Made by a program: the position numbers and the translations under genes
Source of the DNA: Acetobacteraceae bacterium
GTDB lineage: Bacteria > Pseudomonadota > Alphaproteobacteria > Acetobacterales > Acetobacteraceae
Direction of reading: 5' to 3'
DNA: 64,000 nt
Assembly: GCA_027487675.1 (NCBI GenBank)
Contig: JAIYDD010000192.1
Coordinates: forward strand, 1-64,000
Shown here: positions 4,581-53,565 of the stretch, in pieces
How the letters are laid out: every line of letters begins with the position of its first letter
Numbering within the stretch: position 1 is the first letter of the stretch
The notes under the pieces: generated by a model
Told to the model about the DNA's origin: nothing
Database searches by the model: none
The model's input: only the letters and a program-made list of their open reading frames with translations

Positions 4581-5671
4581 GGATCGCCTTCTACGGCTCG
4601 TCGCTGCTCTCCTCCTACTGGAACGGCGCGGCGACCTACTATCGCGGCATCCTGCGGGATCTCGCCGCGCGCGGCTACGAGACGACCTTCCTGGAGCCCG
4701 ACGCCTTCGGCCGCCAGCAGAACCGCGACATCGATCCGCCGGATTGGTGCGCGGTGCAGGTCTGGCCGCCGACCGAGGCCGGGCTTCGCCAGGCGCTGGA
4801 CGTCGCCGCTCAGGCCGACATCGTGGTGAAGGCAAGCGGCGTCGGCGTCTTCGACGACGCGCTGCTGGCCGGCATGGTGCGCACGGCGCGCCCCGACGCG
4901 CTGCGGATCTTCTGGGACGTCGACGCGCCCGCGACGCTCGCCGATATGCGAGCGCTGCCCGAGCACCCGTTGCGCGCCGCGCTGCCGCAGATCGACTGCG
5001 TGCTGACCTATGGCGGCGGACCGCCGGTGGTCGAGGCGTACCGCGAACTCGGTGCGCGCCGCTGCGTCACGGTCTACAACGCGCTCGATCCGGACACGCA
5101 CCATCCCGTACCGCCCGATCCCGTCCTTGCCGCCGACCTGTCCTTCCTCGCGAACCGCCTCCCGGACCGGGAGGCGCGGGTGGAAGCCTTCTTCCTGCGC
5201 GCGGCGGAGCTGGCGCCAGGGCTGCGCTTCCTGCTCGGCGGAAGTGGCTGGGCGGGGAAGCCGATGCCGCCGAACGTCCGGGCCATCGGCCATGTCCCGA
5301 CGGCCAGCCACAACGCCTTCAACGCATCCGCGCGCGCCGTGCTGAACGTCGCGCGCGACAGCATGGCGAAGACCGGGTTCTCCCCCGCCACCCGTGTCTT
5401 CGAAGCCGCGGGCGCGGGCGCCTGCCTCATCACCGACGCCTGGACCGGGCTCGATCTCTTCCTGAAGCCCCATGCGGAGGTGCTGGTGGCGAGGGACGGC
5501 GCCGACGTCGCCGCCCACCTGGCCGCCCTGACGCCCGAGCGTGCGCGCGCCATAGGCGCAGCGGCACGGTCGCGCGTGCTTGCCGAGCACAGCTATGCCC
5601 AGCGCGGGGCCGCGCTGGACGGCGTGCTGCGCGCGGAGCTCAGCCGGCGGCGCGATCGGAGCGCCGCATGA
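4577..5671 (+). CDS. CgeB-like glycosyltransferase (second of three)
   Basis: A 364-aa protein of the CgeB family. It opens with MRIAFYGSSLLSSYWNGAAT, close to the opening of the third copy. Mid-protein motifs include DIDPPDW and a DVDAPATLADM segment near residue 115. The C-terminal donor-binding part reads TRVFEAAGAGACLITDAW, followed by VARDGADVAAHL and LAEHSYAQR. CgeB proteins were named from Bacillus spore-surface maturation genes; in proteobacteria they are usually uncharacterised glycosyltransferases in surface-glycan loci. Four-base ATGA overlaps on both sides show tight translational coupling. Confidence 0.82.
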   Translation: MRIAFYGSSLLSSYWNGAATYYRGILRDLAARGYETTFLEPDAFGRQQNRDIDPPDWCAVQVWPPTEAGLRQALDVAAQADIVVKASGVGVFDDALLAGMVRTARPDALRIFWDVDAPATLADMRALPEHPLRAALPQIDCVLTYGGGPPVVEAYRELGARRCVTVYNALDPDTHHPVPPDPVLAADLSFLANRLPDREARVEAFFLRAAELAPGLRFLLGGSGWAGKPMPPNVRAIGHVPTASHNAFNASARAVLNVARDSMAKTGFSPATRVFEAAGAGACLITDAWTGLDLFLKPHAEVLVARDGADVAAHLAALTPERARAIGAAARSRVLAEHSYAQRGAALDGVLRAELSRRRDRSAA

Positions 5672-50692: not shown

Positions 50693-51432
50693 TGGAGGCG
50701 GGCGCGCTGCTGCCGGCCGCGGGTCGCGTGGCCGCGATCTCCGGCGCCGGGCGCGGGCTCGGCGCGGCGATCGCGCGGCGCCTGCACGCGGAAGGTTTTG
50801 CGTTGGCGCTCGGCGTGCGCGATCCGGGGCGCGCGGCCGCGCAGCTCGCGCTGAAGCCGGACGGGCCGCGCGTCACCTGGCATCGCTACGACGCCGAGCG
50901 GCCCGACACCGCCGCATCCTGGATCGCGGAGGCGGTCGCGGCGCATGGCAGGCTGGATGCGCTGGTGAACAATGCCGGCATCCTGAAGCGCGTGACCTTC
51001 GAGGAAGGCTCGGAAGACGACCTCGACGCGATGTGGGAGGTGAACGTCAAGGGCCCGTTCCGCGCCATCCGCGCCGCGCTGCCGCATCTGCGCGCGGCCG
51101 GGCATGGGCGGCTGGTCAACATCGCTTCCACCGACGGCAAGCGCATCCGCGATCCCTCCGCGCCGCTCGGCTATGCGATGACGAAGCACGCGCTGATGGC
51201 GCTGACCCATGCGGCGCGCTTCGCCGGCCATGCGGACGGGCTGCGCGCCACCGCGCTCTGTCCCGGCGCCATCGACACGGAGCTGATCGCCGGCCTGGTC
51301 GGCGCCACGCCGGCGGCGGGGCGGCTGAAGCCGGAGACGGTGGCGGAGATTGTCTGCCTGCTGCTGCGCCTGCCGGACCAGGCGAATGTCGCGGAGCTGG
51401 TGGTCAACACGCGGCTCGAGGCGATGCTGTGA
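50692..51432 (+). CDS. SDR family oxidoreductase
   Basis: A 246-aa classical SDR. AAISGAGRGLGAAIARRL is the NAD(P) loop, LDALVNNAGILKRVTF the NNAG motif, LVNIASTDGKRI contains the catalytic Ser, and GYAMTKHALMALTH contains Y-x-x-x-K. It is coupled to the preceding SDR gene by TGATG. It probably oxidises or reduces a hydroxy-acid or sugar-acid intermediate. Having an intact and an altered SDR side by side suggests either sequential steps or a heteromeric enzyme. Confidence 0.85.
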   Translation: MEAGALLPAAGRVAAISGAGRGLGAAIARRLHAEGFALALGVRDPGRAAAQLALKPDGPRVTWHRYDAERPDTAASWIAEAVAAHGRLDALVNNAGILKRVTFEEGSEDDLDAMWEVNVKGPFRAIRAALPHLRAAGHGRLVNIASTDGKRIRDPSAPLGYAMTKHALMALTHAARFAGHADGLRATALCPGAIDTELIAGLVGATPAAGRLKPETVAEIVCLLLRLPDQANVAELVVNTRLEAML

Positions 51433-51437
51433 GCCGC

Positions 51438-52595
51438 TCAGGCGAGGGCGCCGGGCGCGAAGCCGGCGATCTCCGGGTCCCCCGGCCGGCGCCGGCCGAG
51501 CGCGAGTTCCGCGATGACGCGCGCCACATGCGGGCCGGCGGTGAAGCCCATCCAGGGGAAGAAGCACAGGAACACGCCGTCCGCGCCCGGCAACTCGCCG
51601 AGGATCGGCCGCCAATCCTGCGTGCCGTTGACGATCGCGGCCCAGCTGCGCACCACGCGCATCCGCGCCACCGCCGGCACCGCGGCGATCGCCAGCCGCA
51701 GGTTGGGGATCAGCGAGTCCTCGCTGACCACCGGCAGGCCGGTGACGGGGTGCAGCCGCGCCGGCCAGCCGCCGCCGATGATCACGCTGCCCTGCGCGGT
51801 CTGCTTCAGCGAAAGCCGGTCGGCTGCCGAATAGACCAGATGCGGCACCAGCGGCGCGACGCGCTCCGTCACCGTCACCTGGATCGGATGCGCCTCGATC
51901 GGCAGGTCGAGGCCGAGCCAGGAGGCGACCTCGCCTGCCGCGGCGCCGGCGCAGTTCACCACGCGGCGCGCGCGCACCACGCCGGCGGTCGTCGCGACCA
52001 GCCAGGCATCGCCGTCGCGCGTCAGGCCGGTCGCCCTGGTGCGGCGCAGGATGCGCACGCCGTGGCGCTGCGCGGCGCGGGCGAAGGCGAAGGTCGCCAT
52101 CAGCGGGTTCGCCTTGCCCTCGATCGGGCAGAAGGTGCCGCCGATGGACTCGGGCGCGAGATAGGGCGCGAGGGCGAGCAGCTCGCCGCGGTCCAGCAGC
52201 CGCACATCCAGGCCTTCCCGCCGCTCGATCGCGGATTTCCGCCGCAGCATCTCGAGCTCCGCGGGACGGCGCGCGACCATCATCCCGCCCTTCGCGGCCA
52301 CCTCCAGCTCCGGCGCGGCGAGCTCCTCGGGCAGTTCCATCCAGCGGGCGATGCCGGCCATCATCAGGTGCAGCGTCGGCGCGAATCGCCGCGCCCAGCC
52401 CTCGCCCTGGTTCAAGAAGGGCTCGACGGGGATCTGCGCGTGGAAGCTGCCCGAGTTGTTGCCCGACGCGGCGGCGTTCAGCTCGCCCTGTTCCAGCAGC
52501 AGAACCTCGGCGCCGCCGTCGCGCGCCAGGTGATACGCCACCGCGCAGCCGGCGAGCCCGCCGCCGACCACGACATAATCCGCGTGCCGTCGCAC
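51438..52595 (-). CDS. DAO-family FAD-dependent oxidoreductase
   Basis: A 385-aa flavoprotein of the D-amino-acid/glycine oxidase family. YVVVGGGLAGCAVAYHLARD is the FAD motif, followed by AAASGNNSGSFHAQIP, and GKANPLMATFAFARAAQRHG and SLKQTAQGSVIIGGGWPARL are shared with the HcnC-like gene at 46647, so the two are paralogues. The start is set at GTG 52595, giving the usual length. The frame continues upstream to an ATG at 52718, but that part is made of 24-bp tandem repeats encoding VRRHADDG units and overlaps the start of the divergent gene. It converges with the SDR gene five bases away. Confidence 0.82.
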   Translation of the reverse strand: MRRHADYVVVGGGLAGCAVAYHLARDGGAEVLLLEQGELNAAASGNNSGSFHAQIPVEPFLNQGEGWARRFAPTLHLMMAGIARWMELPEELAAPELEVAAKGGMMVARRPAELEMLRRKSAIERREGLDVRLLDRGELLALAPYLAPESIGGTFCPIEGKANPLMATFAFARAAQRHGVRILRRTRATGLTRDGDAWLVATTAGVVRARRVVNCAGAAAGEVASWLGLDLPIEAHPIQVTVTERVAPLVPHLVYSAADRLSLKQTAQGSVIIGGGWPARLHPVTGLPVVSEDSLIPNLRLAIAAVPAVARMRVVRSWAAIVNGTQDWRPILGELPGADGVFLCFFPWMGFTAGPHVARVIAELALGRRRPGDPEIAGFAPGALA

Positions 52596-52692
52596 GTCTC
52601 CGTCCGCGCGCCTTCGCACGCCGTCATCCGCGTGCCTTCGCACGCCGTCATCCGCGTGCCTTCGCACGCCGTCATCCGCGTGCCTTCGCACG
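52583..52692. repeat. Array of five 24-bp repeats, each with a dyad
   Basis: Five units at exact 24-bp spacing (dyads starting 52583, 52607, 52631, 52655, 52679) lie at the divergent 5' ends of the oxidoreductase and isomerase genes. Three units are identical in the core CGTGC-CTTC-GCACG; the first has CGTC as loop and the second has one changed base in the left arm. They may be a multi-site operator or RNA hairpins. As codons they would read VRRHADDG. Confidence 0.75.
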
Positions 52693-52716
52693 ACTTCCGC
52701 AGAGGAATCACCCGCC

Positions 52717-53565
52717 ATGGCTGAGTTTCGCGTCGCCGCCTCGACCTTCCCGTTCCTCTATTCGCATTCGGGACCTGGTGCGCTCAAGCACCTCGCCGCG
52801 CAGGGCTACACGAACTTCGAACTGATGATCTTCCCGCCGCATCTCTGGCCGTCCTCCATGACGCCGGCGGAGAAGGCGGAGTTGAAGGCCTGGCTCGGCG
52901 GCAACGGCTTCCACATCACCAGCTTCTGCTACCCGCTGCTCGACAACAACCCGAACAGCACCTGCCCGATCATGCGGCGCTACACGCTCGACCGCTACAA
53001 GGAAGCCGTGGACTTGGCGGACTATCTGGACTGTCCCTATGTCTGCGCCATCCCGGGCCCGGTGAACTCGCTGATCAACCCGCCCGTGCCCTGGATGCGC
53101 GACTGGTTCGTACAGGGAATGCAGGAGCTGGTGGCGCACGCCAAGGGCAGCCGCACCGAGATCATCCTGGAGAACGTCCCCTTCACCTTCCTGCCCACGG
53201 CGCAGGACATGCTGGACGTGGCGAACGACATCGACCCCTCCGTCGGCATCAACTTCGACGTCTGCAACAGCGCCTACATCAAGGAGGACCCGGCCGAGGC
53301 CATCCGGATGCTGGGCGCGCGCGTGAAGAACGTGCACATCAGCGACAGCGGCTACGAGGTGTTCAAGCATGACCGCCTCGGCACCGGCATGGTGCAGCCC
53401 GGCCCCGCGGCGGCCGCGCTGCACGACATCGGCTACACCGGCCTGACGGTGCTCGAGATCATCACCGATGCCTGCCAGCCCGGCACCGATCCCGATGGCG
53501 ACCTCGCCGTCAGCCACGACATCCTGGCCGCGCATGGCTGGGAACAGCGCCCGTCCAGGCAGTGA
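52717..53565 (+). CDS. Sugar phosphate isomerase/epimerase-like TIM barrel
   Basis: A 282-aa protein of the AP-endonuclease-2 / xylose-isomerase-like barrel family. Metal-binding Glu and His candidates are in EIILENVPFTFL, INFDVCNSAYI, VKNVHISDSGYEVF, and LTVLEIITDACQPG. Members isomerise sugars or sugar acids (IolE, hydroxypyruvate isomerase type). The ATG at 52717 lies after the 24-bp repeat array, with AGAGGAA upstream. It is followed by the second DapA-family gene and is likely to be co-transcribed with it. Confidence 0.85.
   Translation: MAEFRVAASTFPFLYSHSGPGALKHLAAQGYTNFELMIFPPHLWPSSMTPAEKAELKAWLGGNGFHITSFCYPLLDNNPNSTCPIMRRYTLDRYKEAVDLADYLDCPYVCAIPGPVNSLINPPVPWMRDWFVQGMQELVAHAKGSRTEIILENVPFTFLPTAQDMLDVANDIDPSVGINFDVCNSAYIKEDPAEAIRMLGARVKNVHISDSGYEVFKHDRLGTGMVQPGPAAAALHDIGYTGLTVLEIITDACQPGTDPDGDLAVSHDILAAHGWEQRPSRQ

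Follow-up and report, generated by a model that had tools for sequence, protein, structure and literature searches.

What is a tandem array of small hairpins doing at the point where two divergent genes of an Acetobacteraceae bacterium share their start codons? In the window that was analyzed, a 64,000-nucleotide stretch of a draft genome (5.18 Mb in 288 contigs), the strongest tandem repeat is located at positions 52578-52692, with a Tandem Repeats Finder (TRF) score of 188 compared to 90 for the next best array. Its homology amounts to 4.8 copies of 24 bp with 91% matches (4.8-5 units; consensus ATCCGCGTGCCTTCGCACGCCGTC). As the strongest head-to-tail repetition of the window, the array represents tandem copies beyond what chance would provide. 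A preliminary description of this DNA, made from the sequence letters alone, proposed either a cooperative multi-site operator or a repeat expansion that tunes the start of translation.

Each unit carries a small dyad with a stem of 5-6 bp and a loop of 4 nt. The five dyads are located at 52583-52596, 52607-52620, 52631-52644, 52655-52668 and 52679-52692, a step of exactly 24 bp, and their 5-bp arms are intact in four of the five units. Three units, at 52631-52692, have identical dyads that read CGTGC-CTTC-GCACG (starting at 52631, 52655 and 52679). The dyad at 52607-52620 reads CGCGC-CTTC-GCACG, and its one changed arm base can still form a G-U pair in minus-strand RNA. The dyad nearest the oxidoreductase core, at 52583-52596, carries a changed loop base and abuts the conserved fold, as does the single unit found in relatives. 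Neither the array nor its dyads are assigned to a strand. RNA transcribed from the array folds somewhat better than shuffled sequences on both strands (z scores of -1.87 and -2.28), which is expected of any repeat composed of dyads.

These data confirm the positions of the five CGTGC-4 nt-GCACG dyads and their exact spacing as given in the preliminary description. The extent reported there, 52583-52692, holds for the dyads, and the tandem homology begins slightly earlier, at 52578. Likewise, the single unit with a changed base corresponds to the arm change at 52607, to which the loop change at 52583 must be added. The array was also correctly judged not to be a CRISPR array: its 24-bp units are contiguous, and no unique spacers separate them.

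The array had been placed between two divergent genes, and it is instead located inside the longest oxidoreductase reading frame. This frame, at 51438-52718 on the minus strand, codes for a DAO-family FAD-dependent oxidoreductase of 426 amino acids in its longest ATG form. The repeat period of 24 bp is a multiple of three, and the frame is open through all units. Translation of the minus strand yields MAGDSSAEV-VRRHADDG-VRRHADDG-VRRHADDG-VRRRADGD-VRRHADY-VVVGGG, such that three units encode the anticipated VRRHADDG peptide and the other two encode variants of it. The FAD-binding DAO domain (Pfam) begins at residue 47, at the end of the array. A structure prediction had a mean pLDDT of 44.7 and was unusable for fold comparison.

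On the plus strand, a xylose-isomerase-like TIM-barrel gene (AP_endonuc_2; 282 amino acids) occupies 52717-53565. It is preceded by the ribosome-binding-site-like sequence CAGAGGAAT (52700-52708, plus strand), which lies 8 nt before the ATG and scores -5.9 kcal/mol; random positions have a mean of -3.1 and a 10th percentile of -6.4. The divergent ATG codons overlap in the strandless tetranucleotide CATG at 52716-52719, and if the oxidoreductase begins at its upstream ATG, nothing separates the two genes. Loci L013-L015 have the same arrangement. By eye, it also appears in three Hyphomicrobiales loci (L022-L024, around 4890-5020), where an oxidoreductase with 56% identity is arranged head to head with a TIM-like gene.

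The history of the array can be traced by comparing its locus among related species. The oxidoreductase has a match in six of the 15 genus genomes searched (its own included), and the head-to-head arrangement is found in four of these six, namely the array-bearing genome and the genomes G005, G007 and G014. Among named genomes, the best oxidoreductase matches are from Falsiroseomonas oryziterrae NPKOSM-4, Roseomonas sp. AR75 and Roseomonas sp. MO-31. The proteins from G005, G007 and G014 are 92, 89 and 87% identical to the oxidoreductase of the window, and each of these three loci carries one unit where five are present here. A dyad is present at all four head-to-head loci, and the single-unit versions read CGCGC-GAGA-GCGCG in G005, CGTGC-GCGG-GCACG in G007 and CGTGC-GAGA-GCACG in G014. 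The reading frame of the window has 48 residues before the conserved VV(I/V)GGG segment versus 17 in the three relatives, whose rows in the protein alignment begin one residue after Met. The net difference of 31 residues equals four units minus one linker residue.

Because three relatives keep the head-to-head locus with only one unit, the expansion is best read as specific to the lineage examined here, and the dyad appears to be older than the array. To judge from these sequences, the ancestor of the four Roseomonas-type species likely carried a single unit at the oxidoreductase 5' end. A comparison of repeat number had been suggested among strains. Carried out between species, it revealed that the repeat array is absent from the three relatives and that the single dyad is kept. 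Thus, the part of the preliminary description that invoked a repeat expansion overlapping the oxidoreductase N-terminus is supported.

The single dyad has features of its own. Relative to G014, both arms have changed in G005 (T to C, A to G) such that pairing is kept while two amino acids are altered. This coupled change hints at a function for the single hairpin, as one event among four sequences. The RNAs of the three single-unit loci do not fold clearly better than shuffled sequences (z scores of 0.41, -1.15 and 0.10). In all six same-genus loci where no oxidoreductase intervenes, no such dyad is present in the 230 bases upstream of the TIM-barrel gene. By eye, the TIM-barrel gene follows the apparent end of an SDR gene in six genomes of the genus (G003, G004, G006, G009, G012 and G013). 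Since this run of genes reads as continuous in these genomes, the oxidoreductase appears to be an antisense gene that has become lodged within it. In the window, about 6 bp separate the stop codons of the oxidoreductase (51432-52719 with its margins) and the SDR gene, and the ATG of the former overlaps that of the TIM-barrel gene.

We therefore assign a probability of about 0.7 to the interpretation that a pre-existing 24-bp hairpin unit was expanded in frame in this lineage, in the manner of a minisatellite, by hairpin-assisted slippage at a tolerant gene end. The polymerase most likely would have paused at the small G+C-rich hairpin and slipped, so that the unit was first duplicated. Once two copies existed, further stepping by whole units could have followed, and the survivors would be those changes that keep the reading frame at a gene end tolerant of extra residues. 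The encoded protein would then probably be an oxidoreductase in which four additional 8-residue units (net 31 residues) precede the FAD-binding fold. Alternatively, the result would be a longer leader if translation starts at a GTG codon within the array. The array, the single unit of three relatives, the excess of arrays in the sampled stretches and the surplus of dyads over shuffled units were observed directly, whereas the slippage mechanism, the translated state of the units and the lack of a regulatory function are elements that we infer.

The unit itself seems to have no counterpart in the rest of the genome. When the array was compared to its own genome, the only other match was to a second 24-bp array on contig C164 (69% identity, E value of 5.8e-4). 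The 14-base dyad, searched with one mismatch allowed, has three matches elsewhere in the genome versus four forward and three reverse matches for a reversed control. Both the array search and these 14-base matches thus provided no second copy beyond chance. Five of the six other 24-bp units are no closer to the window unit than shuffled sequences are (15 to 151 of 200 shuffles reach the observed value). The unit of the sixth, the L108 array, is closer than expected, with 16 of 24 positions shared, a value reached by 1 of 200 shuffles. Plasmid records yielded no match, and a literature search by title found no publication naming repeats of this organism.

Arrays of a similar design are nevertheless common in the sampled parts of the same genome. 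We counted arrays in sampled stretches of this genome and of its relatives, using thresholds set after the first lists had been seen (TRF score of at least 100, period of 15-41 bp, and a dyad stem of at least 5 pairs). Over both rounds of sampling, 19 arrays with a period of 22-28 bp were found in 812 kb of the own genome compared to 3 in 1,133 kb of relatives. A dyad is present in the unit of 21 of the 28 own short arrays, which is more than in shuffled units.

The first round yielded 20 arrays across 523,630 bp of own-genome sequence versus 7 in 732,956 bp of six relatives (13 versus 2 for periods of 22-28 bp), although 206,772 bp of this own sample came from contigs encountered through motif or array hits (contig C1 apart). 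Its random part, 252,858 bp, holds 11 arrays, of which 6 have a period of 22-28 bp and 7 carry a dyad, with p values against the relatives of 0.0016, 0.0049 and 0.016, respectively. Only a fresh sample, examined with the same thresholds, is free of selection and threshold bias; two relatives, G007 and G009, contributed stretches to both rounds. This sample contains 8 arrays in 288,008 bp of the own genome versus 3 in 400,000 bp of four relatives (binomial p of 0.062). The corresponding counts are 6 versus 1 for periods of 22-28 bp (p of 0.024) and, likewise, 6 versus 1 for dyad-bearing arrays (p of 0.024).

Dyads with at least 5 pairs occur in 15 of the 20 own units of the first round and in 6 of the 8 units of the fresh sample. 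Shuffling of the own units gave a mean of 8.0 of 20 with a dyad in the first round (maximum of 13 in 300 trials), and random genomic stretches gave a mean of 6.4 with the same maximum in 300. In the fresh sample, shuffled units gave 3.1 of 8, and 26 of 1000 shuffles reached 6. The dyads are therefore not merely a consequence of base composition. Because the arrays of relatives carry dyads too (5 of 7 in the first round, 1 of 3 in the fresh sample), the genome is set apart by the number of its arrays and not by the dyad as such.

The arrays were also compared with the reading frame. Of the 20 own arrays of the first round, seven lie in reading frames whose codon signature is clearest (GC3 minus GC2 of at least 0.24, a limit set after the values had been seen), and all seven have a period that is a multiple of three, compared to 6 of the 13 others. 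The window array belongs to the group with the clearest signature and a multiple-of-three period. In the fresh sample, where seven of the eight own arrays were checked and a 15-bp array was left out, the period is a multiple of three in three of four signature arrays. The exception has a period of 34 bp and lies before the ATG of its gene, and one of the three multiple-of-three arrays lies upstream of a YebC family match. Three arrays with periods of 37, 32 and 28 bp (L104 9186-9362, L091 6832-6919 and L205 8220-8396) have strong hairpins of 7-10 bp in their units. With their weak codon signature, they are perhaps outside genes.

Several arrays reside in other genes. A 24-bp array of 6.6 units adds AERPTAHA-type repeats to the N-terminus of endonuclease III (TIGR01083; L090 6703-6860, contig C137), and one of 4.2 units adds SRVPDGTT-type repeats to the N-terminus of CheZ (PF04344; L111 1067-1168, contig C260). 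A 27-bp array of 3.7 units lies directly before the conserved part of RimM (TIGR02273; L200 4415-4514). Together with the oxidoreductase, at least four arrays would thus sit at a gene start and add 8- or 9-residue repeats, sometimes with extra in-frame start codons. The array on contig C164 (L003 1146-1356; TRF score of 296; dyad GCGCC-GCAA-GGCGC) instead adds 8.8 in-frame units of the APQGARSE type near the C-terminus of its host (L092 10645-10855). The sequence of this host reads as phosphatase-like; Pfam returned nothing for it, and NCBIfam gave only weak matches to models of hypothetical proteins.

As with the oxidoreductase, such arrays were not seen in the orthologs compared within the genus for three of these proteins (CheZ, endonuclease III and the phosphatase-like protein). 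Repeats are present in none of the 12 CheZ orthologs from the genus whose sequences were printed (L185-L196, leaving out the second CheZ-like copies L197-L199). They are also present in none of the 13 printed orthologs of the phosphatase-like protein (L155-L167, leaving out L168 from G011, which is 51% identical). For truncated loci (L155, L158, L184, L187 and L192), the absence of repeats was judged from the printed sequences. No array with a score of at least 100 was found within 300 bp of the endonuclease III match in any of 14 orthologs from the genus. Within the same distance, three relatives have weak repeats with periods of 24 bp (scores of 61 and 87) or 29 bp (score of 86), and further endonuclease III loci have weak repeats of shorter period.

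It thus seems that this genome makes such expansions unusually often and in mostly unrelated sequences. Given so many similar expansions in the sampled stretches, the array of the window looks more like the outcome of the genome's mutational habits than like a switch built for a purpose. A bolder proposal, which we advance tentatively, is that the species has an active genome-wide process that converts a single small hairpin plus a short spacer into a tandem array with a preferred step of about 23-28 bp. Such a process would add 8- or 9-residue repeats at gene starts, and might stem from a defect or factor, peculiar to the lineage, that affects how hairpins are processed. A model for sbcD gave weak matches in 14 of the 15 genus genomes and none over the cut-off in any of the 15, while 8 of 14 control genomes exceeded it. 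The Y1 transposase model (Y1_Tnp) matched in none of the 15 genus genomes and in 5 of the 14 controls. Neither gene thus separates this genome from its relatives.

Other explanations must be weighed against expansion by slippage. The array might tune initiation of oxidoreductase translation, such that copy number sets both the number of GTG starts and the length of the N-terminus, a prospect we consider doubtful even though several observations agree with it. Each of the five units offers an in-frame GTG on the minus strand (52691, 52667, 52643, 52619 and 52595), and a GTG is found at the start of the unit in three of the four orthologs, own included. The upstream ATG lacks a match resembling a ribosome-binding site (-2.1 kcal/mol; random mean of -3.1). 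Among the candidate starts, the best score, -5.1 kcal/mol, belongs to the last unit's GTG, and about a quarter of random positions do as well (25th percentile of -5.0). For relatives, only the rows for in-frame GTG codons were used in start-site scoring. Between CATG and fold, moreover, the changes that distinguish the Hyphomicrobiales loci L022 and L023 are, by eye, mostly nonsynonymous, as if the leader were noncoding, which suggests a late start in that group. However, the G005 unit has GCG in place of GTG, so the only remaining starts are the ATG of the CATG and a GTG located in the fold's first strand, and the GTG codons are a by-product of the CGTGC arm.

Alternatively, the dyad could serve as an operator or as a nascent-RNA hairpin that controls the overlapping divergent genes, and could have been multiplied here to strengthen or tune this control. 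We consider this unlikely, and the probability that we do grant it comes mainly from the conservation of the single dyad. The dyad is retained at all four head-to-head loci of the genus, including the one coupled change that keeps pairing, and is missing upstream of the TIM-barrel gene at the six same-genus loci where no oxidoreductase intervenes. In addition, 7 bp separate the closest copy from the ribosome-binding-site-like sequence of the plus-strand gene. A turn of the DNA helix takes 10.5 bp, so a step of 24 bp corresponds to about 2.3 turns and neighboring dyads face different sides of the helix. The units described earlier as phased are therefore regular in length but out of helical phase. 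The pattern CGTGCN4GCACG has 33 sites in the genome, four of them in the array, and the 29 others are no clear enrichment over the 21 sites of the reversed pattern. The window has no exact site outside the array, including around an IclR gene and its divergent neighbor, and its 17 sites with one mismatch match the chance expectation of 17.7. A scan of 52300-53000 that is weak for this kind of organism found no sigma-70-like promoter, and the same interval has no Rfam match at E values up to 1. The single-unit loci, as noted above, do not fold clearly better than shuffled RNAs, and similar arrays occur elsewhere in the sampled genome, some of them in unrelated coding genes without a regulatory role. 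With its spacing out of helical phase, its motif not clearly enriched and its likeness to arrays elsewhere, the cooperative multi-site operator initially envisioned is not supported. Such an operator would be expected to have its sites in helical phase and to recur at co-regulated promoters, whereas the step here is 24 bp, the window has no other exact site and the genome shows no clear enrichment.

It is very improbable that the array is a dispersed repetitive element, whether a REP, a CGTC-tagged REP or a Rickettsia-type palindromic element, that was inserted into the gene. A small palindrome in a coding position of an alphaproteobacterium would suit such elements, and some units read GCGTGC-CTTC-GCACGC followed by CGTC. 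However, searches of the genome gave no further copy of the unit above chance level, the Y1 transposase model has no match in the 15 genus genomes, and the single unit of relatives is ordinary gene sequence. We find it scarcely credible that the array is an assembly or library artefact of short reads in G+C-rich repeats. Its source is indeed a draft assembly of many contigs, but the units differ among themselves, the array sits inside a contig of 73.5 kb, and the fragmented assemblies of G005 and G014 have no such array in 206 kb sampled.

By kind, the window locus is nothing unusual, a coding minisatellite, and the more interesting observation is how many arrays of hairpin units the sampled parts of the genome contain. 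The locus illustrates how the mutational habit of a genome can give rise to a repeat that lies between divergent genes and looks regulatory, while relatives still display the single copy. Should the genome-wide excess prove real, this organism would be a natural case for studying why small hairpins expand in bacteria and in what way conserved proteins cope with abrupt repeat insertions at their termini.

Comparisons to known systems help to place the array. Like the GTAG- and CGTC-tagged REP elements (PMC3733652), the units are small palindromes of a kind that sometimes occurs in genes. Those elements are dispersed families, and the CGTC-tagged ones have a stem of 8-9 bp and a loop of 4-5 (PMC3733652), whereas the window unit has a shorter stem and no second copy above chance level, and no match to the Y1 transposase of GTAG REPs was found in the genus genomes. 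The tandem coding repeats with DNA dyad symmetry called PARCELs (PMC2996958) are similar in these two respects. However, PARCELs are a 25-residue amphipathic repeat family that has spread between genomes, and the unit described here has 8 residues and is confined to one gene, with five of the six other 24-bp arrays being no closer to it than shuffles. Slippage of a polymerase at hairpins flanked by direct repeats has been documented in vitro (PMC4134008), and the same combination of hairpin and direct repeats would have provoked misalignment here. The outcome described in that work is deletion, whereas we infer expansion.

The closest likeness is to the prokaryotic “satellites” or coding minisatellites, whose repeat length is described as a multiple of three (PMC6749651). 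The array of the window shares with them short head-to-tail coding repeats with a unit that is a multiple of three, and it has the tandem copies, open frame and copy number differing between relatives that are among the marks of an in-frame coding minisatellite. What differs is that most of the array units in this one genome contain a dyad, their lengths concentrate at 22-28 bp and their sequences are for the most part unrelated, and the single-copy state from which the window array probably grew can still be seen in living relatives.
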